From: Ilyonectria destructans
Taxonomy: Eukaryota > Ascomycota > Sordariomycetes > Hypocreales > Nectriaceae
Assembly: GCA_020740775.1 (NCBI GenBank)
Contig: JAHEWK010000015.1
Location: 992,001 to 1,056,000, forward strand
Length of the DNA stretch: 64,000 nt
Direction of reading: 5' to 3'
Below, piece by piece: positions 32,443 through 54,380 of the stretch. The position numbers and the translations under genes were made by a program. Every line of letters begins with the position of its first letter. Position 1 is the stretch's first letter. Below the pieces are notes generated by a model. The model was not told the origin of the DNA. It worked only from the letters and a program-made list of their open reading frames with translations, and made no database searches.

Positions 32443-34432
32443 CTATTTAAGGTCGCCAAGCACATTTGATCCTTGATGTTGGGTACCTTGAATCGCGGAT
32501 AAAACGAGGAGTCCCGAGGTACTTACCACGCAGCCATTGGGAGGGATCCATGAAGCAATTTTCACAACAGAATCCAGCCCGATTATTGGGAAAAGCCTCC
32601 CTAAGGTACTCATCGAGTGGCGATGGGGAACTACTTCTATCGCCATAGCCATCGTCATCGCTATCATTCACTGGCGCCGCCCATTCGGTAAGCTCTTCAG
32701 GATAGTCAAGATCGCTGTCGGGCGTTGAGAAGCTATATATGTTAGCCTTGTTCATGGCGATCGGGACCCCGACGGTTTTATGGTCGAGGCTGCCTGTGTT
32801 TGGAGGGTAGAGTATTAATGTCTTGGCATGCACGTCTCAACGTACCTTGGGAATGAGAGACCGGTATAGGAGGCCGTACTCTTTTTGCTTTCTGCTTTTG
32901 ATGTGGATGTCGGGGAATTGTGCTGAGGGAGCAGTAAAGGATTAGTTGAAGCGGCGGCGGTCAGTTTCGAACGAGATATCGGTTCAACCGTTGTCGGGCT
33001 CGTGGGACTGTGCGAGCGGGATTCTCTCTGGCTCTTGGTCTTCCGTTTCTTACGGATGATTCTTATCCTCACGAGACCGCTCACGTCGTCCTCATCAGAT
33101 TCTGATTCAACATTTGTCGTCTTTTCGAAAGCGGCGGTGATTTTTGTTGATGGCCTCCCGAATATGGAGGCGGGCGCATCGTGTTCTGCCCGCTTCTCGA
33201 CTTCGACATCTTCTATCTCTGTCACCCTCGTGTAGAACATGTTGCAATTTTCGCTGATGCGAGTCAGAATCAAACCCACTCAACTTGTGGCTGCCCGGGG
33301 GTGGGGGGGTATATACCATTTGATCTCCGCAGTCTCTTCTCCCGATGCAAGGTGGCGGCACCAGGGACAGCTCCTCTTTGGCACTTCACCAGGTTTGTCG
33401 AGCGAGTCCTTGCAAAGTATACTCATATTAACCTTCTGATATGGGCGGAAGGCATGGTCCCATGGCACCGATTGATTTAGTTCCTTGCGGCTTGCATGAT
33501 CCTCAAGTGCGTATTTGTGCCTGGCAACACGACGTCCTCCTTTCATGCCCTCGAATCGCCTTCGTATAATGTAGCCTAGATCTTCCCAGGATGTTATGGT
33601 GCGGAGATGAATAGGGAGTGTTCGTCCAATGGCATCTTGGAGAGTAAAGTATTCTTCGCTTATTGGTCTCTCTAGCCTGACAAAGAGAGAATGAAGTCCA
33701 CGTAACTCCGCATGTATGGCAGAGCCAATAGAAAGAATGAATAGAGAGGTTTGTTTCAGCTCGCCGCCGATATAGTAAGCCATCTGTAAGCCTAGGATGA
33801 CCAGGGACATGAGTTCTTCCATCAAACGCTGCATGTTCTGGCTTTGTTGCGTAATTGAGTTCACAGTCCGAGTTTCCATCAAACCAAGCCGCTGCTGCAT
33901 ATCGGTTCTACTGGATTTGATAAGGTGTCTAGACAATAAATATAGTGAGCTGATCTGCCTTCGGTCCATTGAGAATTGTGTAACACGGAAACTTTTACAT
34001 TGTTGTAGCATGAAGTAAGATCCTGAGCGAGTGTGTGTAGCACTTAATTTCGGTATGGAACTTGTGAATGTCCTTTTCGTCAAGTTTCCATTGAACCTTT
34101 CTCATGGCATCTTTGAGAAGATTTCCTGACCCCATCCCAGAAAGACAATCAGCGTACTTTGCGATTTTGTGCTGGAATTCTGTCAGTGCTCGAGTGATCT
34201 GTCTCGCTGTGTCGGAGGCGGCTGTTTTGAGTCCACACAGCTGTCCGGAAAGATCAGGATCTGTGTAAATTCCATCGATTTCTTTGAGAGCCCTCTCTAG
34301 CAAATCCAAACTCTCGATGAGTTCTCGATAGTCCCGGGCAGAACCTCTGGTGTCGTTGAGTGCAGTGACGATATCTTTTATGATCAGACCGATGGAGATG
34401 AAGTCCCCCACCGCACCGAAAGTCACCTCCAT
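32443..34432 (-). CDS. STAND-N / ubiquitin-like domain protein, paralogue A
   Basis: Five exons (33999-34432, 33317-33928, 32846-33253, 32527-32789, 32443-32486) join in phase to 586 residues. The N-terminus MEVTFGAVGDFISIGLIIKDIVTALND resembles the helical fungal N-terminal domain of STAND/NLR proteins (PigL_N type). A middle segment (about residues 235-340) resembles fungal ubiquitin-like domains (PIHLRTITSWEDLGYIIRRR, then YQKVNMSILCKD). It carries CPWC and, across the second intron, C-E-N-C. The Cys codon is split TG|C by the intron. The tail is Ser/Lys-rich and acidic. It is divergent from its paralogue at 35311. Relatives have no assigned function; a role in fungal self/non-self or stress signalling is speculation. 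Confidence 0.75.
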
Positions 34433-35310: not shown

Positions 35311-37062
35311 ATGGCAGCTCCACCCTTTGGCTTCTCCGTGGGCGATTTCATCGCAGGCGTGAGTTTGGTGAAAGACCTCATCCAAGCACTGGACGATACC
35401 TCCGGTGCAAGGCCAGCATACAGGCGCTTGATTTCCGAATTGCGTACCCTTGATAAGGCCTTGATAACGGTCCAGAAACTTGACGTCGTGCCGGCCCAGA
35501 CACCCCAGAAAATAGCCCTGGAGCAGGTTGCAGCACGGTGCCATAAGAGCATCGAGGGATTCTTGACGAAGAACGCAAAATTCCAGGCCACTTTGGGGTT
35601 GCAATCGCCAGTGAATATATCTCGATGGCGATCGAGCCTGCATAAGGTCCAATGGGCACTTTACAAGGACAGTGCAATAGATCAGCTTAGAACAGAGATT
35701 TCTGGTCATACGACAACCATCAATCTGATTCTCAATACGATCCAGATCACGGCCCTGAAACTCCAAGCAGATCTGGCAGAGAGCGGTTGTCAGACGTTGC
35801 GAAGCGATGAGAAGGAGACGCAAGCTCTGGTGAAAAAGAACCACGGCCTCCTAACCACTCTGGTAGACCTCATAGTCTCCATCTCGCAAATCGTCACGGC
35901 GATCGCGACACATGAGCAAGGTTGCGACTTTCAATCATTCATGAAGAATGTCCTGGAATCGAATATGAAGATCTACACGAGGACCCTTGAGATGCAGAAT
36001 CTCATGCAGACCCAGCTTCCACCACAAATCGAACGACAGCAGCCTGTCTACTTTGAAGATGCTCATGGACGAATCTCGCCATTCCATATCGAGTTCATCA
36101 ACTCATTCGAGGCTTTCCAATCTGTTCTCGAGGTCCGGTTTCAACACGTTCCAGGTTTTAGAAAAGTCAAACAAATCGAGTACATCGTTCGGGATTCTAG
36201 ATTGAAGAAGTCACTCGATTTGCAAAATAACACTTGGGAGACAATGTTCCTACCTGGGAGAAAATTCAATATGAGCATGGTTTTCCGGAACATGCCCAGC
36301 GACGTATCAACATCTTGCCCTAGCTGCCACACAGAAAATGCAGTAGCCGGAGAGAACAAGGGCATGGAGACGAAATGGTATGTACGAATCATAGCTCTTT
36401 GAATTCAGTAATTAATAACAGTAAAAAGCTCCAACCCTGACTGTGGGATGTGGTACCAACGGGTTGAGGAAATTGATGCGATGAACTCCGACAATGCCCA
36501 GAATAGCAAGCTGGGAAAGGAAGCTAGGGGCAGTTCAGACAGCCGGCCTACAAACAGGGGAGTTAGAGAGGACTCTGCGGGTCGGAATGTCAATGCTGCC
36601 AGAGGAGCAGAAGAAGGCGAGGAAGTCCACCAGTTCCGGCGCGTTCAGGTCGTTCACCCTCCAGCGGCGGAGCGGCAGAGAGTCATCTCTGTACACGAGC
36701 TCGCCGTGCACGATCGATCTCTCGAGTATCTCGTCAAGAAATGTACTGGCGAAGAGGAAGACCTAAGACGTACACTGGAGAAGATTGCTGATTACATCCC
36801 CGGCTCGAGGAAGTGGGGAATGAAGAAGACTTATTGGAAGGAGCTTGACGTTTGGAATTACGACTATGATACCCAGGAACTGCGACAAAGGGCGATTGAT
36901 AACGCGGTGCGACAGTACGACAAACAGAGATTGTCGCAATCGGAACCAGAGTGGCAGAATCTGTTACCCAAGGACGAGCGAGGGCAGGGCAAGTGTTTGA
37001 GCAAACTTCAAGCCCGCTTGGCAAAGGAACCATCTTGGCCTCCACCCAAGAGCAAGGTGTAG
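35311..37062 (+). CDS. STAND-N / ubiquitin-like domain protein, paralogue B
   Basis: Two exons, 35311-36377 and 36429-37062, give 566 residues. The N-terminus FSVGDFIAGVSLVKDLIQALDDT matches paralogue A (FGAVGDFISIGLIIKDIV). The ubiquitin-like part holds PVYFEDAHGRISPFHIEF and GRKFNMSMVFRN. Zinc-type cysteines are CPSC and, over the intron, C-SNPD-C-GMWYQRV; the first of these Cys codons is again split TG|C, at the same position as in A. The C-terminal region from about residue 430 is helical and charged (SLEYLVKKCTGEEEDLRRTLEKI) and is not clearly shared with A. The TAG at 37060 is followed by a long open continuation in the same frame. Confidence 0.75.
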
Positions 37063-39371: not shown

Positions 39372-41336
39372 CTAAAGCTTGAACTTATGTAGCCTCGAAT
39401 TCTTCGTCCATCTTCGGAAGTTTTTACCGAAAAATGGAAGGACGGCTAAGCCGATCACTGGAAAGCCAACAGTCATGGCCATCAATAGGAAAACTGGCTG
39501 CATGAATCCGTCCTTTGCGGCCCAATCGTTGATATAATAGGACATTCCAAACTTCTAAATGTTAGCATTCTTTTGAGAAGTTGTGATCGATTAAATAGAC
39601 ATACGCCAAAAGTGTTCTTGACTACAGTGCTGATCACCATAATTTCGCCGGCGACGGGCTTGTAGCAGTCGATAGCATACTATAAAACAAGTTAGAGAAA
39701 CGAGGAGTGACTTGAAACATTCATTTCGTACCGTGATACACAAAGTAGGAATAGACACAACAATACAGCCGACGAGGGTAAAGCCAAGAATAATGACGGC
39801 TTCCCATGGCCAGCCTTTCTGAAGACCAACACCAACAACCTAACCACTTATTAGACAGGTCACTTCGTGATCAACAGCTATACTCACAACCATGCCAATC
39901 ACAGAGCATATAATGAATGGAATCAGAGCAGGCAGTCTCATTTCCGGCTCCCGTATGCCGCCGTTCTTCTTGGTCGCTCGCATGACAATCCAGTCAGACC
40001 AGATTCCTGCAACAGCCAAGCCAATAGCGCCTCCCACTACAAGGGAAAAATTAGCTATTCCTACTTTCTGTGCATTGAAGTTGTATGGCGGTGCAGTGAG
40101 GGCCTGGGACTGAAGGAGATTGACGCAGAGAAGAGAGTTGGCCGCTGCTCCCATGGACATGGCGGCCCAGAAGACAATAGGATAGAAGAAAATCTCGAGC
40201 GGGGTGAATATATGGTGCAAAATACTCTGAACGGCTTGTCGGTCAATCGCTTGCAAGAATCCAAACTGTTCTTTGCTGGGAGAACCTCGACCAAGGTGCT
40301 CAGATAGATCCGTGTTGGCGGCCTCTTCAACTTGCTCCGTGTATTCCTTGCCAGAAACATCAGGATGTAGAGAGCTGTCAATTGTAGTTCCATTTGTTGG
40401 GGTGGTCGATTCCGGGAGCCGCCTTCTGGTCTCAGGAAACATGAAGCATATACAGATGAGGTTGAGACACTGGGCAATCGTACAAGCCCAGAAGAACCAC
40501 CGCCAGGAAGTACGCTGAGCAATAGATCCTGATATGATAGGTCCGATAAAAAGGCCCATGAAATAGCAGTAACTAGAGTGCAACGAATTAGTACAGATTG
40601 AGAATGCGTGGATAGCTAGTTTGACTCACAAGTAGGTTCCGATATACTTGCCACGCTGATGAAGAAACTTGATATCAGCAATGACGACCGGCATGATGCT
40701 CTCGTTGGCTGCTGCTCCGAGGCCTGTGAGTACTCGGGCTCCGAGGAACGAGCTATATGATGTTGCTACTGCTTGCCAAACGCAAGAAGCAATTGTGATT
40801 ATGGCGCAGATGATGAGGACGACTCGACGACCGAAGACTTCGCTACAGGGGATGATGATGAAGTTGGCGTACCCCAATGAAAGAACCGTAGCACCCGTCT
40901 ATTATGAATGTTTGTTAGCTTTCTATTTAATGACATTGGAGATCAGGTATGTGATGCGCGACTTACAAGCAAAGCAACCTGAGATTGAGATTTTCCCCAT
41001 TCCTCCATGTATAACGGTGTCAAAGGCGCAATGGAGAGATTTGTAATGACACTCAAGAATACAAACATTCCCTGCGTGAACAAGACGAGAGTCTTCCAAA
41101 GCGAGGACCAATTCTTGAAGGAACACGAGACAGTGTTAGAGAGGGCGTCTCATTTCTAGCCGACATAAAAATATCATGATGGAGTTTCTTACTAATGGAT
41201 CATGTGGGTCATTGGTTGGCCGGGGTATCAGGACAACTGAATCTGGGGAAGACCCGGCATGAACCAGGGGGGTGCCACCGAGATCAGTCATGATCTCAGT
41301 CCCAGGGACGAGGTCAACGTGGGATGCGTCTTCCAT
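39372..41336 (-). CDS. MFS transporter of the aromatic cluster
   Basis: Starts MEDASHVDLVPGTEIMTDL at 41336; multiple exons with short introns. The segment DPHDPL before the first helix is typical of fungal MFS_1 (DHA1-like) carriers. Membrane blocks include VFLSVITNLSIAPLTPLYME, SLGYANFIIIPCSEVFGRRV with the loop motif FGRRV, and GARVLTGLGAAANESIMPV. The C-terminus ends GMSYYINDWAAKDGFMQPV, then FFGKNFRRWTKNSRLHKFKL. A TTGCGGGACC motif sits 209-218 bp upstream of the start, shared with the catabolic genes to the right. The inferred role is uptake of the aromatic substrate or efflux of a product. Confidence 0.78.
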
Positions 41337-41522
41337 GGTGAACTTTTAGACACTAAAGATCCTTTTAATGGGAATGATTTGCTCCAGAGTCTTAAGTTCG
41401 AGTAGAAGATGATGTGAAATTCAAGTTCGCAATCCCCAGAGGGAGGATCTAGTCTTAGAATTTATGGTCAGTATATGTTGTGTTTTACATGGTGGTAGGG
41501 GTATCTCAACGGGCAGTGTATT

Positions 41523-41554
41523 GTCCCGCTGGAGGCTGATTTGATTGCGGGACC
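41523..41554. promoter_or_regulatory. GTCCCGC and TTGCGGGACC sites upstream of MFS gene
   Basis: GTCCCGC at 41523-41529 and TTGCGGGACC at 41545-41554 form an inverted pair. The second is an exact reverse complement of the cluster motif GGTCCCGCAA. They lie about 190-220 bp upstream of the transporter start codon. Confidence 0.6.
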
Positions 41555-42096
41555 ATGTCAAAATGGTCTAGAATTAGATGGATTAAGCTAGCTTCAACCG
41601 ATGATGCATGTTGCTCACTGAAGGCTAGTAGGTTTGTGGGGTAATTGGGAATCTGGGGGTCGAGGTGCGTTGGGAGCTGGAGAACTTGTGGACCAAGGTA
41701 CAAACATTGTAGGCTGGCTGAACAGGGCCTTGCCATCCACAACTTGCGAAATACGGTTCGACTAATGTCAATATTGGCTTAGTTCGGTATGTTTGTTGTC
41801 AATGCTTGATCCTGAATCAAGCCGACAACGCCCCGATCTCGTTCAGTTGGCCGCACCTGGTGACATTCCCCTACCCAACCATTACTTAAAATATCACCCA
41901 TTAGACTAGGAAATAAGACATATCCAAGACCATCAGGTCAAGGCAAATAGCCTGCCTAACATAAATAGCCCCAAATCGCTTTTTTTTGGGTCCTAGAATA
42001 ATTACCTCTGCCATGCACAAATACATCCCAAGGATCTCGACTTAACAGCGCCCTTGGAAACTACGTGAGTACGAAGCACACTACGCACCACACCAA

Positions 42097-42180
42097 GAAA
42101 ACTTACCCCGCCTGGCTATTGACTAGCTGACTTGATTAGAAAACTTACCCCGCCTTACCATTGACTAACTAACTTGATTA
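42097..42180. repeat. 42-bp tandem duplication
   Basis: Two adjacent 42-bp copies begin GAAAACTTACCCCGCC and end ACTTGATTA; they differ at a few bases (tggct/ttacc, gctg/acta). It lies directly left of the motif array. Confidence 0.8.
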
Positions 42181-42198
42181 GAGATAGCTCCAACGCAT

Positions 42199-42259
42199 CG
42201 TCCCGCAACAGAAAAGGTCCCGCAACAGAAGAGGTCCCGCAACTGACAAGGTCCCGCAA
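42199..42259 (+). promoter_or_regulatory. Four-copy array of GGTCCCGCAA, 17-bp period
   Basis: The motif starts at 42199 (CGTCCCGCAA), 42216, 42233 and 42250, exactly 17 bp apart. The 7 bp between cores vary (CAGAAAA, CAGAAGA, CTGACAA). The array lies 863 bp upstream of the transporter start and 196 bp left of the transposon. Confidence 0.75.
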
Positions 42260-42454
42260 TCGTAAATTTCACAAACAAGATGGATTTAATACGTTGGGCA
42301 ATACATCTTCTGCAAATGTAGCGTTTTAGTAAATTTCTGTATATTAAGACATAAATTAATTATCTTACTTCTTATATATTTCAAACACTCGAACCAGTAC
42401 TATATGGGGCTTCTCTTGGCATTCTTGTAGAGGGCTTCGCAGATGATTGGAGTA

Positions 42455-42506
42455 AGTCGGACCACCCATTAGCTGACCGACCCCTTACCTGACCGCCCCA
42501 CTTACA
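42455..42506 (+). repeat. Left terminal inverted repeat of transposon
   Basis: 52 bp; reverse complement of 44279-44330 with one mismatch (G against A at the 37th base). Confidence 0.9.
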
Positions 42507-42655
42507 TAATAACTAAAATCGCAATTCAACTTCACTTATAGATAAAATAACAACTAAAAGACCTAATTGGTCCATTTCAACTGATTTTTAATAAACTAAC
42601 TAATTAAATTTCTAAATATCAAAAAATCAACCAATAAGAACAAAGAAAAAACGAG

Positions 42656-44188
42656 CTATTCTGAATCTTCAACCTCAGGCGTTTTTATTCGCCTTCTTGC
42701 CCTCTTAACATTCCGGATATCTTGAAATAGCCTATTTGGGTCTTTATAAACCCGTCCTCTTTTCCTAGCCTTTGATTGGCTTGAATTTTGATCTTGGACT
42801 TTGATTTTTTCTTCTAATTGGGCAATTTGGAACTGGAGCCTATCAAATCCCTTGCTAATAGTCCGTAACAGCTGTCTCGTAGTTGGGCTAGCTAGTATTT
42901 CCTTCTTATGAGAACGGACCAATGAAGTAATGTCTCTCGAATTGCTAGGGGTTGTAAAAGGGATGATTTCAGACCTCTGATTCGTTTTTGGAGAAATAGG
43001 AGCTTCTGATTGGACCGTAATTGTATCGTTAGGGTTGTGAATAACGAATTTACTACCCATTGGCTTTGATATGTTGATTGGCCACAACCCGGCTCCTCTC
43101 CAACCTGATAAGGCATTTTTAGTAGTAAGAGCCTTCTTCCTTGCCTCAAAATAGCAAGTAAGAAAGTCTTCCTTCCTAGTTGGGCCAATATCAGTGAGGG
43201 GATTGGCTAGTGTTAAGGCGGCTCGATATGCAGCTTTAAGTGGCCCAAAGACTGATATATCAAGAGGCTGAAGAACGTGGCTTGTGTGAGGCGGCAAATA
43301 GAGTAAATGGACCCTATTGGTCACACAAATATGCATAAAATCAGGCGTTATGTGTGATCCATGCCCATCTAGGATGAGGAGCCTCTTCTCATTGGTCCGG
43401 GCTGGCTTAGAGCCTGGAAGGAAGACTTCCTGCAGCCAAGCAAGGCCAATTTCGTCATTAGTCCAGCCCTTATCAGACGATATGAATTTCCAATTAGTCA
43501 GAAAGTCCAATTCCTCTGGAAACCATTGGTGTTGGACGTATTTGCCTTTAAAGATGACTAATGGGTCGAGGCACCTTCCTGTTGCGGAAATAGCCTCAAG
43601 AATGGTTATCCAATTAAGGTCATATAGCTGTTTCTTAATTGTCGATCGGAGCTCTGATTGGCCAACTACAAGCCCGTTGGTTCCGAGCCCTTGGAAGACT
43701 CCAGTTTCGTCAAAATTCCAACGGTTGCGTGGAGGGATCGATTTGACCCCTGGTTGGTCCAATAGGTCATAGAACCCACGAATAGCAGCTGGATTTGCTC
43801 TATTTATCCTTTTCCGGTCAATTCCCTTTCCTTTGAGTGTTTTTATTCGCTGGTTGCGGCGTAGGAAGCCAGTCATCCAGTGCTTTCCGAGTTGTCGGTT
43901 GACGCCACTTTCGCCCAACAAGGAAGTTGCCAACTTCCGGATCTGGCTATGAGTCAACGCCATTCCGAGCTTATCTTGTAAGATGAGCCAATCACAGAGC
44001 TGGTCTTCCTGGTTCTTAGAAAGCACCTGACGCCATTCGTGGGCTTCGTTGCGGCTTGGGACGCCATTGAGCTTAGTCCGTAGGGTTGAATAAGGAACAA
44101 CGCGCTCATTGGCTGCTTTTCGCATTGATAGACCATTTTTCACATCCTGAATGGCTAGTTGGAGGTCTTCTTCGGTGTATTTAGGCAT
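42656..44188 (-). CDS. Fot1/pogo transposase (DDE superfamily)
   Basis: 510 residues, one exon, no internal stop. The N-terminal helix-turn-helix (YTEEDLQLAIQDVKNGLSMRKAA) and a CENP-B-type second HTH (LGKHWMTGFLRRN) would bind the terminal repeats. The catalytic core shows NFDETGVFQG (first Asp), LLILDGHGSHIT (second Asp) and HVLQPLDISVFGPLK (third Asp), the DDD triad of pogo/Fot1 enzymes. The C-terminus is basic (ARKRGRVYKDPNRLF, then KRARRR), as in a nuclear localisation signal. Full length compared with Fot1 relatives, so the element may be autonomous. Confidence 0.93.
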   Translation of the reverse strand: MPKYTEEDLQLAIQDVKNGLSMRKAANERVVPYSTLRTKLNGVPSRNEAHEWRQVLSKNQEDQLCDWLILQDKLGMALTHSQIRKLATSLLGESGVNRQLGKHWMTGFLRRNQRIKTLKGKGIDRKRINRANPAAIRGFYDLLDQPGVKSIPPRNRWNFDETGVFQGLGTNGLVVGQSELRSTIKKQLYDLNWITILEAISATGRCLDPLVIFKGKYVQHQWFPEELDFLTNWKFISSDKGWTNDEIGLAWLQEVFLPGSKPARTNEKRLLILDGHGSHITPDFMHICVTNRVHLLYLPPHTSHVLQPLDISVFGPLKAAYRAALTLANPLTDIGPTRKEDFLTCYFEARKKALTTKNALSGWRGAGLWPINISKPMGSKFVIHNPNDTITVQSEAPISPKTNQRSEIIPFTTPSNSRDITSLVRSHKKEILASPTTRQLLRTISKGFDRLQFQIAQLEEKIKVQDQNSSQSKARKRGRVYKDPNRLFQDIRNVKRARRRIKTPEVEDSE

Positions 44189-44278
44189 GAAAATAACGAA
44201 AATAAGGTTAAATTGACCAATTGAGTGTTATTGAAGGAAGAAACGCGTGTGGCTAGAGGCGCGTTGTGGTTGACGCGT

Positions 44279-44330
44279 TGTAAGTGGGGCGGTTAGGTAA
44301 GGGGTCGGTCAGCTAATGGGTGGTCCGACT
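44279..44330 (-). repeat. Right terminal inverted repeat of transposon
   Basis: 52 bp; the partner of 42455-42506. Its outer end abuts the TA at 44331-44332. Confidence 0.9.
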
Positions 44331-44332
44331 TA

Positions 44333-44954
44333 GTCATGTTGGAAGGTTTAACTCTCAAATGTCTACCTGTTGACGGATAGCGGCAGTTGTCTCCTGGGGC
44401 ATACTGCGACTAAGGAAGAAGTAATCAAAGAGATTAAATTGATGTCTTTGCAATATCCTGAACATGGGACCTTCACGTTATAGTTTAGCTCGCTTCTGGA
44501 GCTTGAAACCTGCCGCTGCAAAATGTCGTAGCTATCCCAATGCATGTTTTCTCTGCTACACTTCCTCATTTACGTATGTAAGACGCCAATTTATTTATAC
44601 GAAGAATCTAAGACCGACTGCTCGGCGGTTTCCGGACTAAATAAATCTTGTCAGACGGTCTCTGATCCCCTCAAATCCCCCCTGGTCGATTCTTGGTATA
44701 GATGGAATTACTTCACACCAAATCCTTATGCGTAACCCTCTCATGCCAGTCTTATCTAAAGGATTGTACATCATTTTCGTTCCGGATTGGATCAGTGCAG
44801 TATCAGGCCCGCCTTTTGGACTGGCTCGATGGATTGAGGCGGCCACTCATACTAGAATTTTCCACAACTTAAACCACAGCTATGATATAAATGTTTTACG
44901 TGCTGCTGTATAAGAGTATTTGGTTGAAGTTTATTGTATGACGGACTACCACAC
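44333..44954. other. Intergenic, right of transposon
   Basis: 622 bp between the element and the FAH stop codon. Joining left and right flanks at the TA does not restore a convincing reading frame. No gene was recognised. Confidence 0.5.
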
Positions 44955-45988
44955 CTATCGTGTATCATAACGGACCTGATTTACAAGTGTTCCAATTTTA
45001 GAAATCTCCACGCGAATTTCATCTCCGTGCTCTAGTATCACCCGAGGTGTCTTGAAGTAACCGATGCCGGCTGGAGTGCCGGTCAAAATCAGCGACCCAG
45101 CCTCTAGCGTAGTTCCCTGGGATAGATATGAAATTTGTTTACGGATGTTGAAAATCATATCAGCCGTCGTTCCATCTTGAACGACATTGCCGTTGTGGAT
45201 TGTCTTCACCCGTAGAGTCTGGGGGTCAGGAATTACTGCTGGAGAGACGAGTACAGGGCCTAACCGGAGAGCAGATAAGTATCTTGTCGAAGTGCATGGG
45301 GAATGTATTGGGATTAAACTTACCAATGGGGCAGCTTCCGTCAAGTCCTTTAGAGAACGACCACTGCGCAGTCAAGAGTTGAAGTTTTCTTGCCGACACA
45401 TCGTTCGAAGACGTGTATCCCAGGACATAATCAAGCGCGTCCTCTTCAGATATATCCCGCCCTGATTTGCCAATCACGGCACATAACTCGCCTTCATAGT
45501 CGCTCGTGCCATCTTGGGCGCACTTGGGCACGGTGATAGTGGCAGGATAGGGATCAGCCAATGCGGTACGAGGCTTGGTGAACAATACTGGAACCTCAGG
45601 AACTGGGAAGCCTCCCTCCTATTAACATGATGTTAGCATTCAACTTGTCTAGTAACTGGCTTTGTCATGGTACCTTGGCATGATCATGATAGTTTAGACC
45701 TAGACAGCGGATGTAGGAACAATCCTGTTCAGAGACGGGTGACAGAAGCTATTTGTGTTAGAAACATGTCGTGAATGACGGGGGATGTTTGATACATACT
45801 CTTTCCACGGTGTAAACAACGCCGGTGACATTTCCTTGGAAAATGGTTCCATTGATCAGGTATGCTTTAATCTCAATCCCTTCAGTGGCATCTTTTCCAA
45901 CGTCTCTCGACGTGTGGACCAGTTGACCGAGATGCACGGCATGGTCTTCTTTAGCCACAAAACGAATAAGATGAGTCCAGGGTGCCAT
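44955..45988 (-). CDS. Fumarylacetoacetate hydrolase-family enzyme
   Basis: Starts MAPWTHLIRFVAKEDHAVHLG at 45988; about four exons. After splicing: TVERV, LLSPVSEQDCSYIRCLGLNYHDHAK, then EGGFPVPEVPVLFTKPRTAL and DYEGELCAVIGK, the acidic metal-binding block (DxE). SSNDVSARKLQL, GSLILTGTPAGIGYF and HGDEIRVEISKIGTL complete the FAH fold. Family members are Mg-dependent and hydrolyse, isomerise, decarboxylate or hydrate 2-oxo dicarboxylic acids made by ring cleavage. Divergent from the extradiol dioxygenase with a shared promoter carrying TTGCGGGAC sites. The inferred role is processing of the cleaved-ring product. Confidence 0.87.
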
Positions 45989-46141
45989 TTTGGATATATG
46001 TGCTGTGTCTCGAAGAATTGGGTACTACTAGAAGTGGAAGATGCTTATAAGTAGGCAACACATTAATTAAAGACGGATATTTCTACTAAAATATTGGCAT
46101 CCTCTCGTATTAATTCGTGCTGGGCTTGAAACTCAGAGTGG

Positions 46142-46202
46142 CGGCGGGACGCCAAGGTTGCGGGACACGGATATACGGATAACTTCCATTAGATTGCGGG
46201 AC
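46142..46202 (-). promoter_or_regulatory. TTGCGGGAC sites in divergent FAH/dioxygenase promoter
   Basis: TTGCGGGAC occurs at 46158-46166 and 46194-46202, 36 bp apart (twice the 18-bp period of the 51.5-kb array). CGGCGGGAC at 46142-46150 is a near copy. They lie about 154-200 bp upstream of the FAH start and about 300 bp upstream of the dioxygenase start. Confidence 0.65.
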
Positions 46203-46496
46203 GTGATCATCGTCATCGATCCCACCGGTGTAATGCGGGGTTCAGGATTGTTACGGGATAGCACTATTGCTAGCCGATGAGCTCGACTGGGGGGAACTGA
46301 GTGACAGATGTGACTGTCCCCGCACAATTACTTGATGGCCGGCATCTTGATCGGCATCGAAGTTCGCCTGAGGACAATACTACAAGTATACTAGAGGGCC
46401 CTGATGCCGAACTGCAAATGATGACTGTCCACGCCTCTTCACAGAAGTAACGAAGTAGACAGAGATTAAGATTACATCATCAAATCGTCAACAACC

Positions 46497-47730
46497 ATGG
46501 CGGTCTCTTCTGCGCCAGAACCGAACCGTGGAGGATCAGTCTCAGACCTGGTGGCCGTTGGGCCCGAGAAGCAGAGTCTAGAGGATTGGAAGAAGCAGAA
46601 CAATGTTGATGCCAGCAAGCAGATCAAACTAGTCAAGCTTTCCCATATGCGTTATCAGCACCCGGACTTAGATAAAATTACGACATTTCTTCAAGGTAAT
46701 GTAATATTTCTTCCCGGAGCTTAGCAGCCTTATTGACAGGGCATCTCTTAAGATTTTGGCTTGTCCATTGCGCATCGGACCGAAACCGAAATATGGTATC
46801 GAGGGTACGGTTCAGATCCATATGTTTGTACGTTTAACATTCCCTATTTAAACTCGCGTAAATTACTCACCACGCATGTTAGACTATGCTGTCAAAGGCC
46901 CCAAGAAATTCTTGGGTGGTGCGTTTGTTGTGGAATCCTATCAGGACCTTGAACGAGCGAGTGCTCTTGGGGGTGGAAAGATTGAAGAGATGACATGTGC
47001 TCCCGGAAGGGGCCAGAGTGTCACAATCCACGATCCCGAAGGGTTTCCCATGGTCTTAATCCATGGTCAGGCTTCGGTAGACGGACAAGAGCCTCCAGAG
47101 AACATCGTCTCCAATTATGAGAAGAAGAAACCTCGACTTCGCGAGTTCCTAAGATTCACTCATGGACCCGCGGCTGTATTCAAGGTAAACAACTGTCCAA
47201 AGTCCTGCCAATGCTTAATAAGATGACTAATTAGGCTACCCGTATAGTTGGGACATTATGGGTTGTGTGTTCAAGATTTTGAAGCCCAGCTCGACTTCTA
47301 CCTGACCAACTTCAACTTGGCCCCAACAGATTTCCTCCACGTTGATCTTCCAGACGGATCCAAGAAGTCAGTGGCCCTTTTTGCTCACATCGATCGAGGC
47401 GAAGATTATGTCGACCACCACACCTTCTTTATGAGCACCAACAAGACGAGCCATGTCCACCACTGCTCGTTCGAGATTCATGACTATGACACTCAGATGC
47501 TGGGTCATCAGTGGTTAGCGAAGAAGGGCTACGAGTCTGTCTGGGGTGTTGGTCGACACATTCTTGGATCTCAAATTTTTGATTATTGGTGGGATCCTAA
47601 TGGAAACATGATTGAACACTACGCCGATGGAGATCAGGTTAACGAGAAGACTCCAATCAGCTATTCCGCTGCTGGCGATGAGTCCCTGGCTGTTTGGGGT
47701 CCAGAAGTACCGAAATGGTTTCTGGAGTAG
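46497..47730 (+). CDS. Extradiol ring-cleavage dioxygenase (VOC family)
   Basis: Four exons (46497-46695, 46753-46827, 46883-47184, 47248-47730) give 352 residues. Two vicinal-oxygen-chelate modules are seen. The N-terminal one starts VKLSHMRYQHPDLDKITTFLQ joined to DFGLSIA. The C-terminal one starts LGHYGLCVQDFEAQLDFYL. The likely 2-His-1-Glu metal site is GH in LGHYG, VHHCSFEIHD and NMIEHYADGD. WWDPNGNMIEHYADGD is characteristic of type I extradiol dioxygenases such as BphC/metapyrocatechase. The inferred reaction is Fe(II)- and O2-dependent cleavage of a catechol next to one hydroxyl. Substrate unknown; VOC proteins can also have other roles. Confidence 0.85.
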
Positions 47731-48415
47731 ATTCTCAAAGTCTATCGCCAGTACATGTTTCAACGTCACATTCAATTGACTCATTACCACAGTCGCAGAT
47801 ACATTCAACATTAACTTTGGACCAAGTGATTGTGTTGTTTCTAGAATGTGGATAATTGCTGCTGGATCGCGGTATCCGGATTTTGCATCGCCAGCACTAG
47901 ACTGCAGAATTCTGTTTCAGTAAGTAAAGCTGCAAGGTACTCCAGCTGTCAGGGCAATTAGTAGCTACAGTACATGAAGTAGGCAGAGCCACCTAAGGCA
48001 TGAGTTCATACTCTTCATTTTAGAAATATACTGGAAGGGCTCGCATATGTGCTCGCCTAGTGGTTTATTGCCATAGTGAGAGGGATCGTGCAATTGCATG
48101 GGCCTATTCCAGCCTCACAGCAGAAACAGGCATCGCTCACTATCAACTGCGAGTTGTCAACGGGCCGATGAGACGACGACCTTGTTGACACGCAATTTAC
48201 AGGGGTGCCCACCACACAAATGCCCAGAATGTCGGCGGGGAACTTGAACGGTCCCGCAAGATCCTGCGAGATCGGATGGGTTGGTCCCAAGTTACGGCAC
48301 TAGACCAATCTTGGACATGGCTTATGCCATAACAGAAACACCTCCTCTTTTGAACACCGCTAAGCACTTTTGCAATTGGTATTGGATGATTATTCATACA
48401 TACAGCCTCATCTGC
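47731..48415. other. Convergent intergenic region
   Basis: 685 bp between the dioxygenase and the C2H2 regulator, tail to tail. It holds one exact GGTCCCGCAA (48250-48259) and nothing else recognised. Confidence 0.55.
48250..48259 (+). promoter_or_regulatory. Single GGTCCCGCAA motif
   Basis: Exact 10-bp match to the array core, with unrelated flanks. Its place between convergent genes makes a promoter role less obvious. Confidence 0.4.
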
Positions 48416-50931
48416 TCATGGAGCCGTTGTCAGATCGTCGAGTAGAGTTTCTAAGATTGAAGCAAATTTCCTCGATATCTCCCAATGCCCGATCCTTCGC
48501 AAAATATCAATGGCACTGCATAAAACGCTGGGCTCAACAGGAGAAAAAATATCCGACGACGTCCTGTCGCTGCTCAGGTTGGCGGGGCCAGATGATCCCG
48601 AGATTTGTAGTTCGGGAACGTTCACCTCGGCTTGTGAAGGCGTGTAGGCACCGGCGGTTGGTTTCAACCTTATATAACTGTACACCACAATGGCCGAGTA
48701 GAAGACGGCTTTGGGCACGTGTATCGCCGGCTCAAATCCGATAGGTAGCATCTCCAAGTATTTGAGGAGAAGGAGCGAATGGAGGACACCATACCGGGCT
48801 TCCGAAGAAGCAGCCCAGTCGTTGGTCTCTCGCCTCGCCTGCTCCGCGACGACTCTACCATCACGGCCTATTGAGCGCTCCAAGAGGTCGAAGTCAGCGT
48901 ATAGGGCCATAAATGCCAAATGCCAAAATATCATGAGGCTGAGGTGGTTGTTCTTGGATCCCTGGCCGTGCTTGCTGTGCTCACTGTGCCAAGTGAGGAG
49001 CATGTTGCGAAAGGAGTCAACTAAGACGTGATCGAGCGACTGGCTCCTAGTTTCCTGTATTGAAGCCACAATACCAGACAAGGAAGCATACTTGTACATG
49101 TGGGAATTGCGAATCATTGAAGTTGGGGTTGTGGTTCCCGAAGCGAACGGACGGGACTGAGCAGTTGTAGAGTCTCCTTCCCTCTCCTTTTCGAGAAGGC
49201 TATGCCATTCAGATGGATTAGCAGCGAAAAAAACGTCATCGGAGCTGCAAAACGGGAGGCTATTAAGCCTATACCGAAGAAGTGGTTCATGGTGAAATGT
49301 AGTTGCAAATTCTGAGTCGTGGACATAAAGCCCCAAGATGAGACGAACTGACTCTTCTGCATGAGCCCAAGTTTTCCAAGTATCCTCTTGAGGTGTCCCG
49401 AGCTCATCTGCAAGTACTGCTAAAGGCTCTTTAATCTTGAAGAAACCTCCTTGACGAGCCCAAGCAATGACGGTACCATGGAAGCTTTCCGTCAAGCATA
49501 GATCACTCGGCTGGCCTGAGAGCATGCCAAACGTCTGCCCGATGGTAGCAGCTTGAACAAGCGAGAGCACCTCTCGACTGCCCTGGCGGATGTAGCCATC
49601 CCACTATATTCGACGTGTTAGTCAGTGGTCATAGGGATCAAAGGTAATCGCTTACGGATGCTAGGATGGCCTTGTTAAGCATTTGGAAGATTTTCCTGCC
49701 CTGTGTGGCGGCACTGGCAGAGCCCATGAAAAGAGCGCCAACCGAACATACAGACAAGAGGAGCAAAGCATTCTCGGATGAAGGTCGAAATGATGGCGCG
49801 TGCAGAAGGGGGAATACTGGGTTGAATCTCACAAAATACAGTTTAATGCAAAGATTCTGCTCAATGTCAGATCGTCCTCAAATCAAAAGCTATGATTCCT
49901 GTGGCTTACCAGAAAGTCTGCCGATGGCAATGGAGTATTACTGAGTGGTGGTTGCAACCTGTGCGAAAGACCTTCTCGATACGCCTCATCAATCTCATCC
50001 TGGTCGGTTGATCCGTGAGAAATAACATCGCGAGAGAGCGTCGTATGCCAGTTATTTTGCACAGCGGGAACCAACTGCGTGAGCGTTCCAGACCCAGACT
50101 CACGGCTCGAATGGTGAGTAATCTCGCCAACACCTTGGTGATCAGGAGCAACCTCATGACTCGGAAGCTCCCATGCTGATATGGCAGCAGAGATGGAATA
50201 GTTTAACGCGTCGAGGTCAAAATCGCTTCCGAGCAACCAAGCTTGATCGTAAGTATTTAGGCCAATGTTCATCAGTTCAAGGTCAGTTGGAGTGTTGAGG
50301 AAGCTTGCAGAAAACTCTACTCCGCCTTCCCCAGTGGGCACTTCGATAGTGGTTGAAGACAAGGCATTCGGCTGGGGAACGATGGTGTTGAACGGGTCAT
50401 TCGCCTGTGGCTGTTCTTGTCTCCCAGTTTGACTGCCGATGGTGCTCGTGACCGATGCAGCGCCGTGTTGAGAAAAGTCTGTGGAAGAATGAGCACCTGC
50501 ATTGTCGATTTCAACCGCGTCATCATTCGGACTACCTTCCACCACGATACTCTCCCAAGCTGGAGAATGTCGGGGTGGAAGAGGCGAGTGCCGCGAGGGT
50601 ACTCTGCCTGCCGTTATGCTCTCTTGATCACGGCCATGAACCCGAGAATGGCGAAGCAGCGAGTCCCTGTACCTTGTTAGTATCTAACCCAGCCGGATGT
50701 TTCCGGAAGGGATCGGGTTTACTGGCGACTGTATGCTTTCCCACATTGGTCACACCGGAATGGCCTTTCCCTTGTGTGTGATCGAACGTGGCGTGCCAGG
50801 TGCTCCGTCTTGGAGAAGCATTGTCCACAATGAGGACACTTTCGGAGCCGTTTGGCCCCTCCCGTGGTCTTTGCTAGACCAGGTCCTGTGGGACTACCAA
50901 GTTGCTCGTGAGACATGGCTCTTGGGCCCAT
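48416..50931 (-). CDS. C2H2 zinc-finger transcription factor with MHR domain
   Basis: Start taken at 50931 (MGPRAMSHEQLGSP); 50916 is also possible. Two classical fingers: CPHCGQCFSKTEHLARH-VRSH, and CDQCGKAYSRQ joined across an intron to DSLLRHSRVH. A long Ser/Thr/Asn-rich linker follows (about residues 95-310), then the fungal MHR domain (FVRFNPVFPLLHAPSF, SVGALFMGSASAATQGRKIF, WDGYIRQGSREVLSLVQAA). This AmdX/Adr1-like layout is common for catabolic regulators. Helix residues K-H-R (finger 1) and R-S-R (finger 2) at -1, +3 and +6 predict GNG-GG(N), fitting the cluster motif core GCGGGA. The stop is at 48416. Confidence 0.88.
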
Positions 50932-50933
50932 AA

Positions 50934-51022
50934 GGGACGAGAAACTTGTATGCCCGGAGCAGCCCGACGGAGCCGAGTCGAGTGAACGAAGATGAGGGAT
51001 GCCTGTAGCAAGATACTTTACA
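50934..51022. repeat. Direct repeat copy 1, 5' flank of the C2H2 gene
   Basis: About 88 bp, starting GGGACGAGAAAC and ending AGATACTTTACA, match 54400-54488 at roughly 84 percent by eye. It lies directly upstream of the regulator's start codon, so it is 5' UTR or promoter-proximal DNA. Confidence 0.75.
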
Positions 51023-51771
51023 GACTAGGGGCGGGGTGCATGTCTCGGCGATCGGTACTCCAGAAACGCCGGCCGTTATTTCAGTTTCCCCAGACATGAC
51101 TAAACCAGAAACAGAATAGTAGCATTATTACTCCACGAAGTGAATTACGGTTATCTTGTTTTGTGGCCCAACATGCACCATGTGCCTGCCCATGTCAGCA
51201 TACTTTCTCACACGGTTTACCGCAATACCTATAATATGTTGAGAAGGCATGGTGCAAAAAACAACAGACATTTTCCCTCAAACCCGTATTGCCACCGCGT
51301 TGCAAATGAATACTTTACTCTCGGATACACGAAAATTTACCAGATCGAGGCATCTCGACCTCATATGTCTATGCTAATATTCAATCAGACCATGCTGGTG
51401 TTGTTCTAGGCCTACCATTAGCTAAAGAGTGTTCCAGTACTTTGCGTCCCCGCATAAACACTCAGGTAACCAGAGTGGTCCCGCAGCATTCTCAGGTCCC
51501 GCAACATTCTGAGGTCCCGCAACGTTATGAGGTCCCGCCATTTGTCTTTCGCTTCCCCGCAACATCGTTCGAGTATGCCTCCTCGCCGCTGTTTGTGGGG
51601 GACAGGTATTGATGCATGGTGAATCCGGGGTAATGGACTGGCTATTGAAATACAACAATCATCTCTCTAATTGTATGAGACGTTTTACAAAGTGGTTCCA
51701 ACGGCAAGAAGCTTGCGACATTCGCCCTTTCGACATACGTAGGCCATACTCCTTCCTGTCTTTGCTTCACC
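51023..51771. promoter_or_regulatory. Divergent promoter of C2H2 regulator and FAD hydroxylase
   Basis: 750 bp between the two genes. It contains the 18-bp-period motif array (51477-51562), 210-295 bp upstream of the hydroxylase start. Further sequence similarity to the repeat at 54.4 kb extends weakly to about 51,080. Confidence 0.6.
51477..51562 (+). promoter_or_regulatory. Four-copy array of GGTCCCGCAA, 18-bp period
   Basis: Cores begin at 51477 (GGTCCCGCAG), 51495, 51513 and 51531 (GGTCCCGCCA), exactly 18 bp apart. A relaxed copy (CCCCGCAA) follows at 51555-51562. Spacers share CATTCT/CGTTAT-like sequence. This array and the one at 42.2 kb share only the core, not the spacers. Confidence 0.78.
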
Positions 51772-53860: not shown

Positions 53861-54380
53861 TGTGACAGGCGGTCGGGGACTTTGGCTAGCTGGTTGCTAG
53901 CAGGGACGCCTCGAGGGTTAAAAAGGGGAGGTCGGACCAGAGGGAGGGGAGAATCATCGCATTTCTTTTATTGGGATTTTTCCTTAGAGTCAGAAGAGCC
54001 CAGAGGGCTTGAGGCTTGCTGTCAGAGTCTTTAAAATATATTGCCTGCATTTTTGAGAGATTTATTTGAGTCTATTTTGACTGACGTCACAATCCCTGTC
54101 CAACCTCCGTCTCCCACCCCCTCAGATATTGGGCTACTGCGGACCCTATTGAAGTCTTCCCAGCGGAATTTCCCGCGATTAACTTAATATTCTATCTTAT
54201 AAGATGCTTTCGTATTTGGAGATATAAGCCTTAGATCTATCCGACCTTATATATATAGTCTGATGTAGCTTCAAACTGACTATTTAAGATATCTCTATAA
54301 TGGCCGTCCGTCGTGTCTTATTACGGGACCAAACTTATAGGAGTTCTTATGGGCACGTCTAGCCGTCCTAGGACGTGACA
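53861..54380 (+). repeat. LTR-like repeat, copy B (possible solo LTR)
   Basis: 520 bp starting TGTGACAGGC and ending GGACGTGACA, with TG..CA-type ends and a TTAAAAAGGGG promoter-like block. The second half is AT-rich. It aligns in inverted orientation with 37,720-38,040. No coding sequence lies inside and no second LTR was found. The flanking 5-bp duplication is not clear. Confidence 0.5.

Follow-up and report, generated by a model that had tools for sequence, protein, structure and literature searches.

Repeated promoter elements in a putative meta-cleavage aromatic gene block of Ilyonectria destructans and a probable C2H2/PF04082 regulator that would bind them

The promoters of a five-gene block in the genome of the ascomycete Ilyonectria destructans carry repeated copies of a short motif, GTCCCGC in its compact form, which are probably upstream activating elements with the core 5′-TTGCGGGAC-3′ (equivalent to GTCCCGCAA). 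They come in groups across what looks like a meta-cleavage aromatic cluster, and the two-finger C2H2/PF04082 regulator encoded within it would bind them. The block lies in a stretch of 64,000 nucleotides, referred to below as the window, that corresponds to positions 992001-1056000 of the contig that we number C7 (the genome comprises 71.67 Mb in 74 contigs). A first-pass annotation of this DNA had proposed a protein-binding site. From the sequence, a site of this kind used across the cluster is well supported by the restriction of the motif to intergenic DNA, the conservation of its core over its spacers, its upstream positions and its fit to the fingers of the regulator.

The block consists of five genes with open spliced frames:

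39372..41336, minus strand: major facilitator superfamily (MFS) transporter, 7 exons, 536 aa, open frame
44955..45988, minus strand: FAA_hydrolase-family (FAH) enzyme, HpaG/HpcE-like, 3 exons, 262 aa
46497..47730, plus strand: extradiol dioxygenase, glyoxalase-fold, HpaD-like, 4 exons, 352 aa
48416..50931, minus strand: regulator with two N-terminal C2H2 fingers and Fungal_trans (PF04082), candidate binder of the motif, 4 exons, 784 aa
51772..53805, plus strand: FAD aromatic hydroxylase (FAD_binding_3), 3 exons, 639 aa

Intron ends were placed at GT-AG signals with a script and by visual inspection, and the gene models are predictions from the genomic sequence. The FAH and dioxygenase genes, like the regulator and hydroxylase genes, form divergent pairs, that is, with bidirectional promoters inside the block. 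In NCBIfam the hydroxylase is most similar to MhpA-type hydroxylases, the dioxygenase resembles HpaD, and the hydrolase resembles both deoxyrhamnonate hydrolase and the HpaG group, in all cases below the curated cut-offs. The solved structures nearest to the hydrolase are FAH-family and HpaG/HpcE proteins, and those nearest to the dioxygenase, as weak matches, are glyoxalase-fold and homoprotocatechuate dioxygenases. Judged by these enzyme families, on which the term catabolic rests, the block looks like an aromatic catabolic cluster that would encode the hydroxylation, meta-cleavage and hydrolysis of a phenolic compound.

The motif and its variants are distributed over the intergenic DNA of the block as follows:

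41523..41529, plus strand, and 41547..41553, minus strand: two GTCCCGC facing each other, which precede the MFS start by 187 and 211 bp
42096..42182, plus strand: 42-bp unit in 2.1 copies with TTACCCCGCC (GCGGGG class), adjoining array A
42199..42259, plus strand: array A, four GTCCCGCAA units repeating every 17 bp, 864-915 bp before the MFS start
46144..46202, minus strand: three GTCCCGC, at 46144, 46160 and 46196, within the promoter between the divergent FAH and dioxygenase genes (distance to the FAH start 156-208 bp, to the dioxygenase start 295-347 bp)
46234..46324: two CCCCGCA variants in the same promoter, at 46234 (minus strand) and 46319 (plus strand)
48250..48259, plus strand: lone GGTCCCGCAA in the gap between the 3′ ends of the dioxygenase and regulator genes, non-promoter
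51449..51454, plus strand: CCCCGCA variant within GTCCCCGCA, upstream of array B
51477..51540, plus strand: array B, four GTCCCGC units repeating every 18 bp, 234-288 bp before the hydroxylase start
51553..51562, plus strand: TTCCCCGCAA, a possible diverged extra unit of array B

The longer word GGTCCCGCAA is found exactly at seven sites (41545 on the minus strand, 42216, 42233, 42250, 48250, 51495 and 51513), and with one mismatch at 42199 (C first), 46158 and 46194 on the minus strand (T first and C first, respectively), 51477 (G last) and 51531 (C at position 9), as well as at 54321 on the minus strand, beyond the block. All twelve sites that the first-pass annotation had listed are where it placed them, and its array periods of 17 and 18 bp are right, but its statement that the window holds no other GTCCCGC does not stand: 19 copies are present, those unlisted being at 600, 4222, 7652, 28575, 41523, 46144 and 53566. 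Fourteen of the 19 fall in block intergenic DNA (six upstream of MFS, three in the FAH/dioxygenase promoter, four in the regulator/hydroxylase promoter and one in the convergent gap), and the remaining five are one inside the hydroxylase coding sequence (53566) and four outside the block (600, 4222, 7652 and 28575). The description of the sites as lying in front of genes is thus correct for the listed sites in promoters and incorrect for 48250. All 14 intergenic sites read GTCCCGC and none GTCCCAC, in a list that leaves out one GTCCCAC in the first exon of the regulator and the sites beyond the block. Still more restricted is GTCCCGCA, with ten copies in 2,457 bp of promoter DNA and one in the convergent gap (11 in all), none in the five genes and none in the 49,566 bp of the window outside the block. 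The 350-bp stretches upstream of the five starts together contain nine of the 19 GTCCCGC in the window (0.33 expected). Note also that array B lies 547-601 bp upstream of the regulator start, which places candidate sites in the regulator's own promoter.

These sites are enriched over the backgrounds with which we compared them. In the window, GGTCCCGCAA at up to one mismatch occurs 13 times (mean of 100 shuffles 3.68, maximum 8) and GTCCCGC 19 times (shuffle mean 7.19, largest 15). An unbiased k-mer count of the three promoter regions (41337-42445, 45989-46496 and 50932-51771, with the convergent gap and a transposon counted separately) against the window outside the block returns GTCCCGC as the top 7-mer; the leading 6-mers in the block promoters are CCCGCA, GTCCCG and TCCCGC, all parts of the motif, and among 8-mers of the same regions GTCCCGCA is joint first with GGTCCCGC. 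The 14 intergenic sites occupy 3,151 bp in which 0.66 would be expected (P 2e-14), the background being 16 other stretches of the same genome (156,801 bp) whose promoters are unmapped and each of which holds at most three GTCCCGCA and six GTCCCGC. GTCCCGC occurs at 2.1 per 10 kb in these stretches and at 0.81 per 10 kb in the part of the window beyond the block; most of the stretches were picked for holding the motif or adjoining such places, so that their rate would err, if at all, on the high side. A scan of the whole genome, which the first-pass annotation had proposed as a check, points the same way: GGTCCCGCAA and GTCCCGCAA occur 107 and 476 times, respectively, and are rarer than their reversed control words (183 and 615), and 10 of the 476 GTCCCGCAA copies fall in the 10 kb between 41545 and 51522 of the window, a roughly 150-fold concentration (Poisson probability 4e-19 for one 10-kb stretch, of which the genome holds about 7,180).

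The arrays add a second kind of evidence. Fifteen pairs of the form GTCCCGCA-N4..34-GTCCCGCA occur in the genome (nine for the reversed pattern), six in this cluster, six in a dispersed repeat on C10, C16 and C24, two on the unlinked contig C11 and one at C1:5485448. The two pairs on C11 make up a third array, of three units with a 21-bp period, at C11:117398-117447. From one unit to the next in the three arrays, the nine core bases (those of GTCCCGCAA or the corresponding places of a unit) differ at 2 of 72 positions and the remaining bases at 27 of 75 (Fisher 1e-7), a contrast that is inflated because units that had lost the core would go uncounted as units. With the last units left out, 1 of 45 core and 10 of 46 other positions differ (p 0.004), and the p values for the single arrays are 0.002 for A, 0.028 for B and 0.007 for C11. 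Since the spacers within an array are copied too, the arrays look to have grown by tandem duplication, while units at A, B and C11 have only the core in common; the earlier claim that nothing but the core is shared therefore applies between loci and not within an array.

The regulator offers a plausible reader of this core. In its spliced model the fingers read FSKTEHLARH and YSRQDSLLRH, with helices (-1 to 6) KTEHLAR and RQDSLLR. Finger 2 is a Pfam zf-C2H2 match (residues 58-80), finger 1 has the C2H2 spacing CPHCGQCFSKTEHLARHVRSH by pattern and a zf-H2C2_2 match (44-69) below the Pfam cut-off, and Fungal_trans covers residues 326-540 (E 2e-19). Under the canonical recognition code these fingers predict 5′-G[C/T]G-GGG-3′, and the observed core GCGGGA agrees with this prediction at five of six bases. 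The exact predicted word GCGGGG, that is CCCCGC, is over-represented as well in the block promoters (7 vs 0.92 expected), and the duplicated 42-bp unit that contains TTACCCCGCC might represent a second type of site, of the GCGGGG class.

The preferred reading can then be put as a mechanism. An aromatic substrate or intermediate would turn the regulator active; finger 2 would read GCG and finger 1 GGA or GGG; several regulator molecules per promoter would jointly switch on the transporter, hydroxylase, dioxygenase and hydrolase; and the common regulator/hydroxylase promoter would allow feedback on the regulator gene. Binding, activation, inducer and autoregulation are what we infer from the DNA. 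Several points weigh against this reading. The core ends in A, whereas finger 1, with K at -1, would call for G. Proteins with two fingers contact about 6-7 bp, yet 9 bp are conserved, so that another contact or protein may be involved. Array B taken alone gives weak core constraint (p 0.028, and 0.29 without its last unit), array A is far from the MFS start, and the site at 48250 is in a non-promoter gap. Finally, the same motif occurs on C11 with no related C2H2 gene near C11:117k among 50 genome matches, and a different factor could therefore serve both places.

This second block (C11:114400-121600) encodes an MFS transporter, three Anthrone_oxy proteins, a PhyH protein and a DUF4336 protein, and an ABC transporter adjoins it. 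In 20 kb of C11 there are 17 GTCCC[GA]C, of which 15 (nine GTCCCGC and six GTCCCAC) sit 134-255 bp upstream of predicted starts, preceding five of the six genes (MFS, the three Anthrone_oxy and PhyH) and not DUF4336. When the three array sites that led to this place are removed, 12 of 14 are within 350 bp upstream of starts (0.62 expected, P 4e-12). The starts are ATGs from open frames and not full gene models, and an ATG 33 bp further upstream in the third Anthrone_oxy frame would bring its four sites that much nearer. The sole head-to-head GTCCCGCA pair in the genome (3-33 bp apart; reversed control 0) is a 38-bp palindrome at C11:114683-114720, and GTCCCGCA pairs facing each other are absent genome-wide (control 3 per strand). 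The first-pass annotation had called the operator cluster-specific, a description contradicted by this unlinked block, where five of six genes are preceded by the same core.

The C11 block bears the motif, and its service by the local regulator is a candidate link. We put forward, tentatively and as somewhat less likely than its negation, that a single pathway-specific C2H2/PF04082 regulator governs two unlinked blocks as one regulon, the meta-cleavage cluster and the transporter/anthrone-oxygenase/PhyH block, through GTCCC(G/A)C sites mostly about 130-350 bp upstream of starts; tandem duplication of operators would increase site dosage at selected promoters, and a variant at the base faced by position 3 of finger 2 would be tolerated in the second block. 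The C/T ambiguity predicted for that position coincides with the base that varies on C11.

Alternatively, and in our judgement rather unlikely, the repeats are true factor elements whose binder is some other genomic factor, either C2H2 or a Zn2Cys6 protein reading CGG, that controls both blocks while the local regulator acts elsewhere or indirectly. Besides the 15 sites before five genes of the C11 block and the lack of a related C2H2 gene near it among the 50 matches, this explanation draws on a Zn_clus gene about 12 kb from the nearest C11 site, on the GTCCCAC form, seen at six of the 15 C11 sites vs none of the intergenic sites here, and on a C2H2 protein at C10:464630 that has five of six key finger residues in common with the regulator (FGKAEHLHRH, FGRQDALTRH) and remains a candidate; finger helices were compared for the ten best C2H2 loci beside the window's own, one of which gave no finger by pattern. 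Zn2Cys6 dimers typically bind paired CGG...CCG, whereas the units here are direct repeats at 17, 18 and 21 bp; moreover, the local regulator lies inside the marked block, has array B in its own promoter and has fingers that fit the core.

That CreA/Mig1 binds the motif as an element of glucose repression is very improbable. This global repressor reads GCGGGG-like DNA with two C2H2 fingers and requires the final G (consensus SYGGRG). CCCCGC fits this consensus and is enriched in the same promoters, and the genome encodes a CreA-like protein (C23:2630077, FHRLEHQTRH/FSRSDELTRH). However, the dominant core GCGGGAC has A where SYGGRG needs its final G, at all 14 intergenic sites, and a global repressor site would not concentrate about 150-fold in one cluster; the window regulator, for its part, differs in its recognition residues and in its PF04082 domain. 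CreA as main binder is rejected on the last base of the core, and it persists as a minor rival since CCCCGC is enriched too.

Least credible of all is that the arrays are minisatellites or transposable-element pieces without regulatory role, the tandem form with copied spacers, the transposon adjoining array A and the six of 15 GTCCCGCA pairs in a dispersed repeat being offset by single non-array sites in other promoters, by the different and nearly fixed spacer of that repeat, as against units at A, B and C11 that share only a drift-resistant core, by the lack of GTCCCGC in the transposon, by CCCGCAA pairs that are not enriched genome-wide (52 vs 60 in the control), and by the absence of the array A or B spacer from all nine GTCCCGCA pairs outside the cluster. 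The first-pass annotation had named membership of a MITE or minisatellite family as what would speak against an operator; unit and spacer are not dispersed in the genome, and this explanation is rejected.

Several repeats were observed in passing. The dispersed repeat, with GTCCCGCA[CAT]TTTTGTGGCAGTCCCGCA, lies at C10:233763, C16:288728, C16:390609/391059 and C24:265330/265781; on C16 and C24 two inverted copies stand about 450 bp apart, like mobile-element ends. A pogo/Fot-like transposon with TA flanks (42455-44330) separates array A from the end of the FAH gene, and has an open 510-aa DDE_1 transposase (HTH_psq, HTH_Tnp_Tc5) and 57-bp terminal inverted repeats that are 96% complementary. 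Four overlapping CCCGCAA pairs in 36-bp steps at C74:504857-504985 are probably a tandem repeat of another kind, and a 32-bp context around GTCCCGCAA that recurs thrice within 18 kb (C15:809860, 814783 and 827331, one copy with a single change) is a local duplication.

The motif does not look general to genes of these families. The genome holds at least six paralogous dioxygenase and FAH modules (C5:544k, C73:2953k, C73:2766k, C9:159k, C45:475k and C2:1996-2001k), five being divergent pairs and the C2 module also having a hydroxylase, which by sequence is an expanded meta-cleavage repertoire for a fungus. On contigs C1-C62, GGTCCCGCAA (at least 99 of its 107 genome places) lies within 5 kb of two of 51 places paralogous to the dioxygenase, FAH and hydroxylase genes, both adjoining one single site (C45:2939433); extra exons of one gene and the window's own genes were left out, and C67, C73 and C74 were dropped. 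By eye, paralogue places on any contig do not coincide with the 15 GTCCCGCA pairs. On the same contigs (four places on C67 and C74 dropped), GGTCCCGCAA comes within 5 kb of one of the 44 places with related C2H2 sequences (a single site, C13:640010), which speaks against a motif general to such regulators.

Spliced genes, with a Zn2Cys6 factor, a P450 and PF04082 proteins among their products, fit a filamentous fungus. Elsewhere in the window are two neighbouring ULD_2 ubiquitin-like domain genes on opposite strands that face away from each other (33283-34083, minus strand; 35311-36399, plus strand). No RNA family was found in the window at gathering cut-offs, no hydroxylase relatives were confirmed in the bacterial and archaeal contigs searched, and a 161-bp piece with array B gave no match against plasmids. 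Among the matches listed in a literature search for GTCCCGCA and TGCGGGAC, none dealt with a fungal operator, judged by title and start of the abstract.

The closest known parallel, by architecture, is HxnR of Aspergillus nidulans. HxnR has two N-terminal C2H2 fingers and PF04082, is encoded inside a catabolic cluster under its control, and serves as one factor for targets in three separate clusters; putative sites lie in the shared promoters of divergent genes, and another lies upstream of its own gene (PMC5746545, PMC8478523, PMC9304392). Its site, 5′GHGGGG, is a prediction from the fingers, and as of the 2021 paper its sites had not been established by experiment (PMC5746545, PMC8478523). 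The window regulator would thus be alike in domain order, pathway specificity, bidirectional promoters and candidate sites at its own gene. HxnR belongs to the nicotinate pathway, whereas the genes here are a hydroxylase, an extradiol dioxygenase and an FAH-type hydrolase; the core GCGGGAC comes from promoter DNA, where it forms tandem arrays, and GCGGGA differs from GHGGGG at the last base, the GCGGGG form being the one enriched alongside it. According to the same sources, pathway-specific fungal regulators are generally Zn2Cys6 proteins, the C2H2 exceptions being few and called unusual (PMC5746545, PMC8478523). In Fusarium graminearum, a promoter motif over-represented in one metabolic cluster was taken to indicate a regulator of that cluster; such a motif was present in 19 clusters, and one motif-bearing cluster includes a putative C2H2 factor (PMC4198257). 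Those clusters are secondary-metabolite clusters, the motifs shown for them differ from GTCCCGC, and CCCGC is absent from the text (PMC4198257).

According to a 2025 review on Aspergillus niger, few regulators of aromatic pathways have so far been identified, and extradiol dioxygenases are less frequent among fungi (PMC12388069). With a regulator, its probable operator and two blocks of candidate targets, this genome offers a compact, directly testable system, suited to the study of finger-DNA recognition, of site dosage and of how an unlinked block joins a regulon. If the two-block regulon is true, the operator for this class of regulator would have been read from DNA alone.

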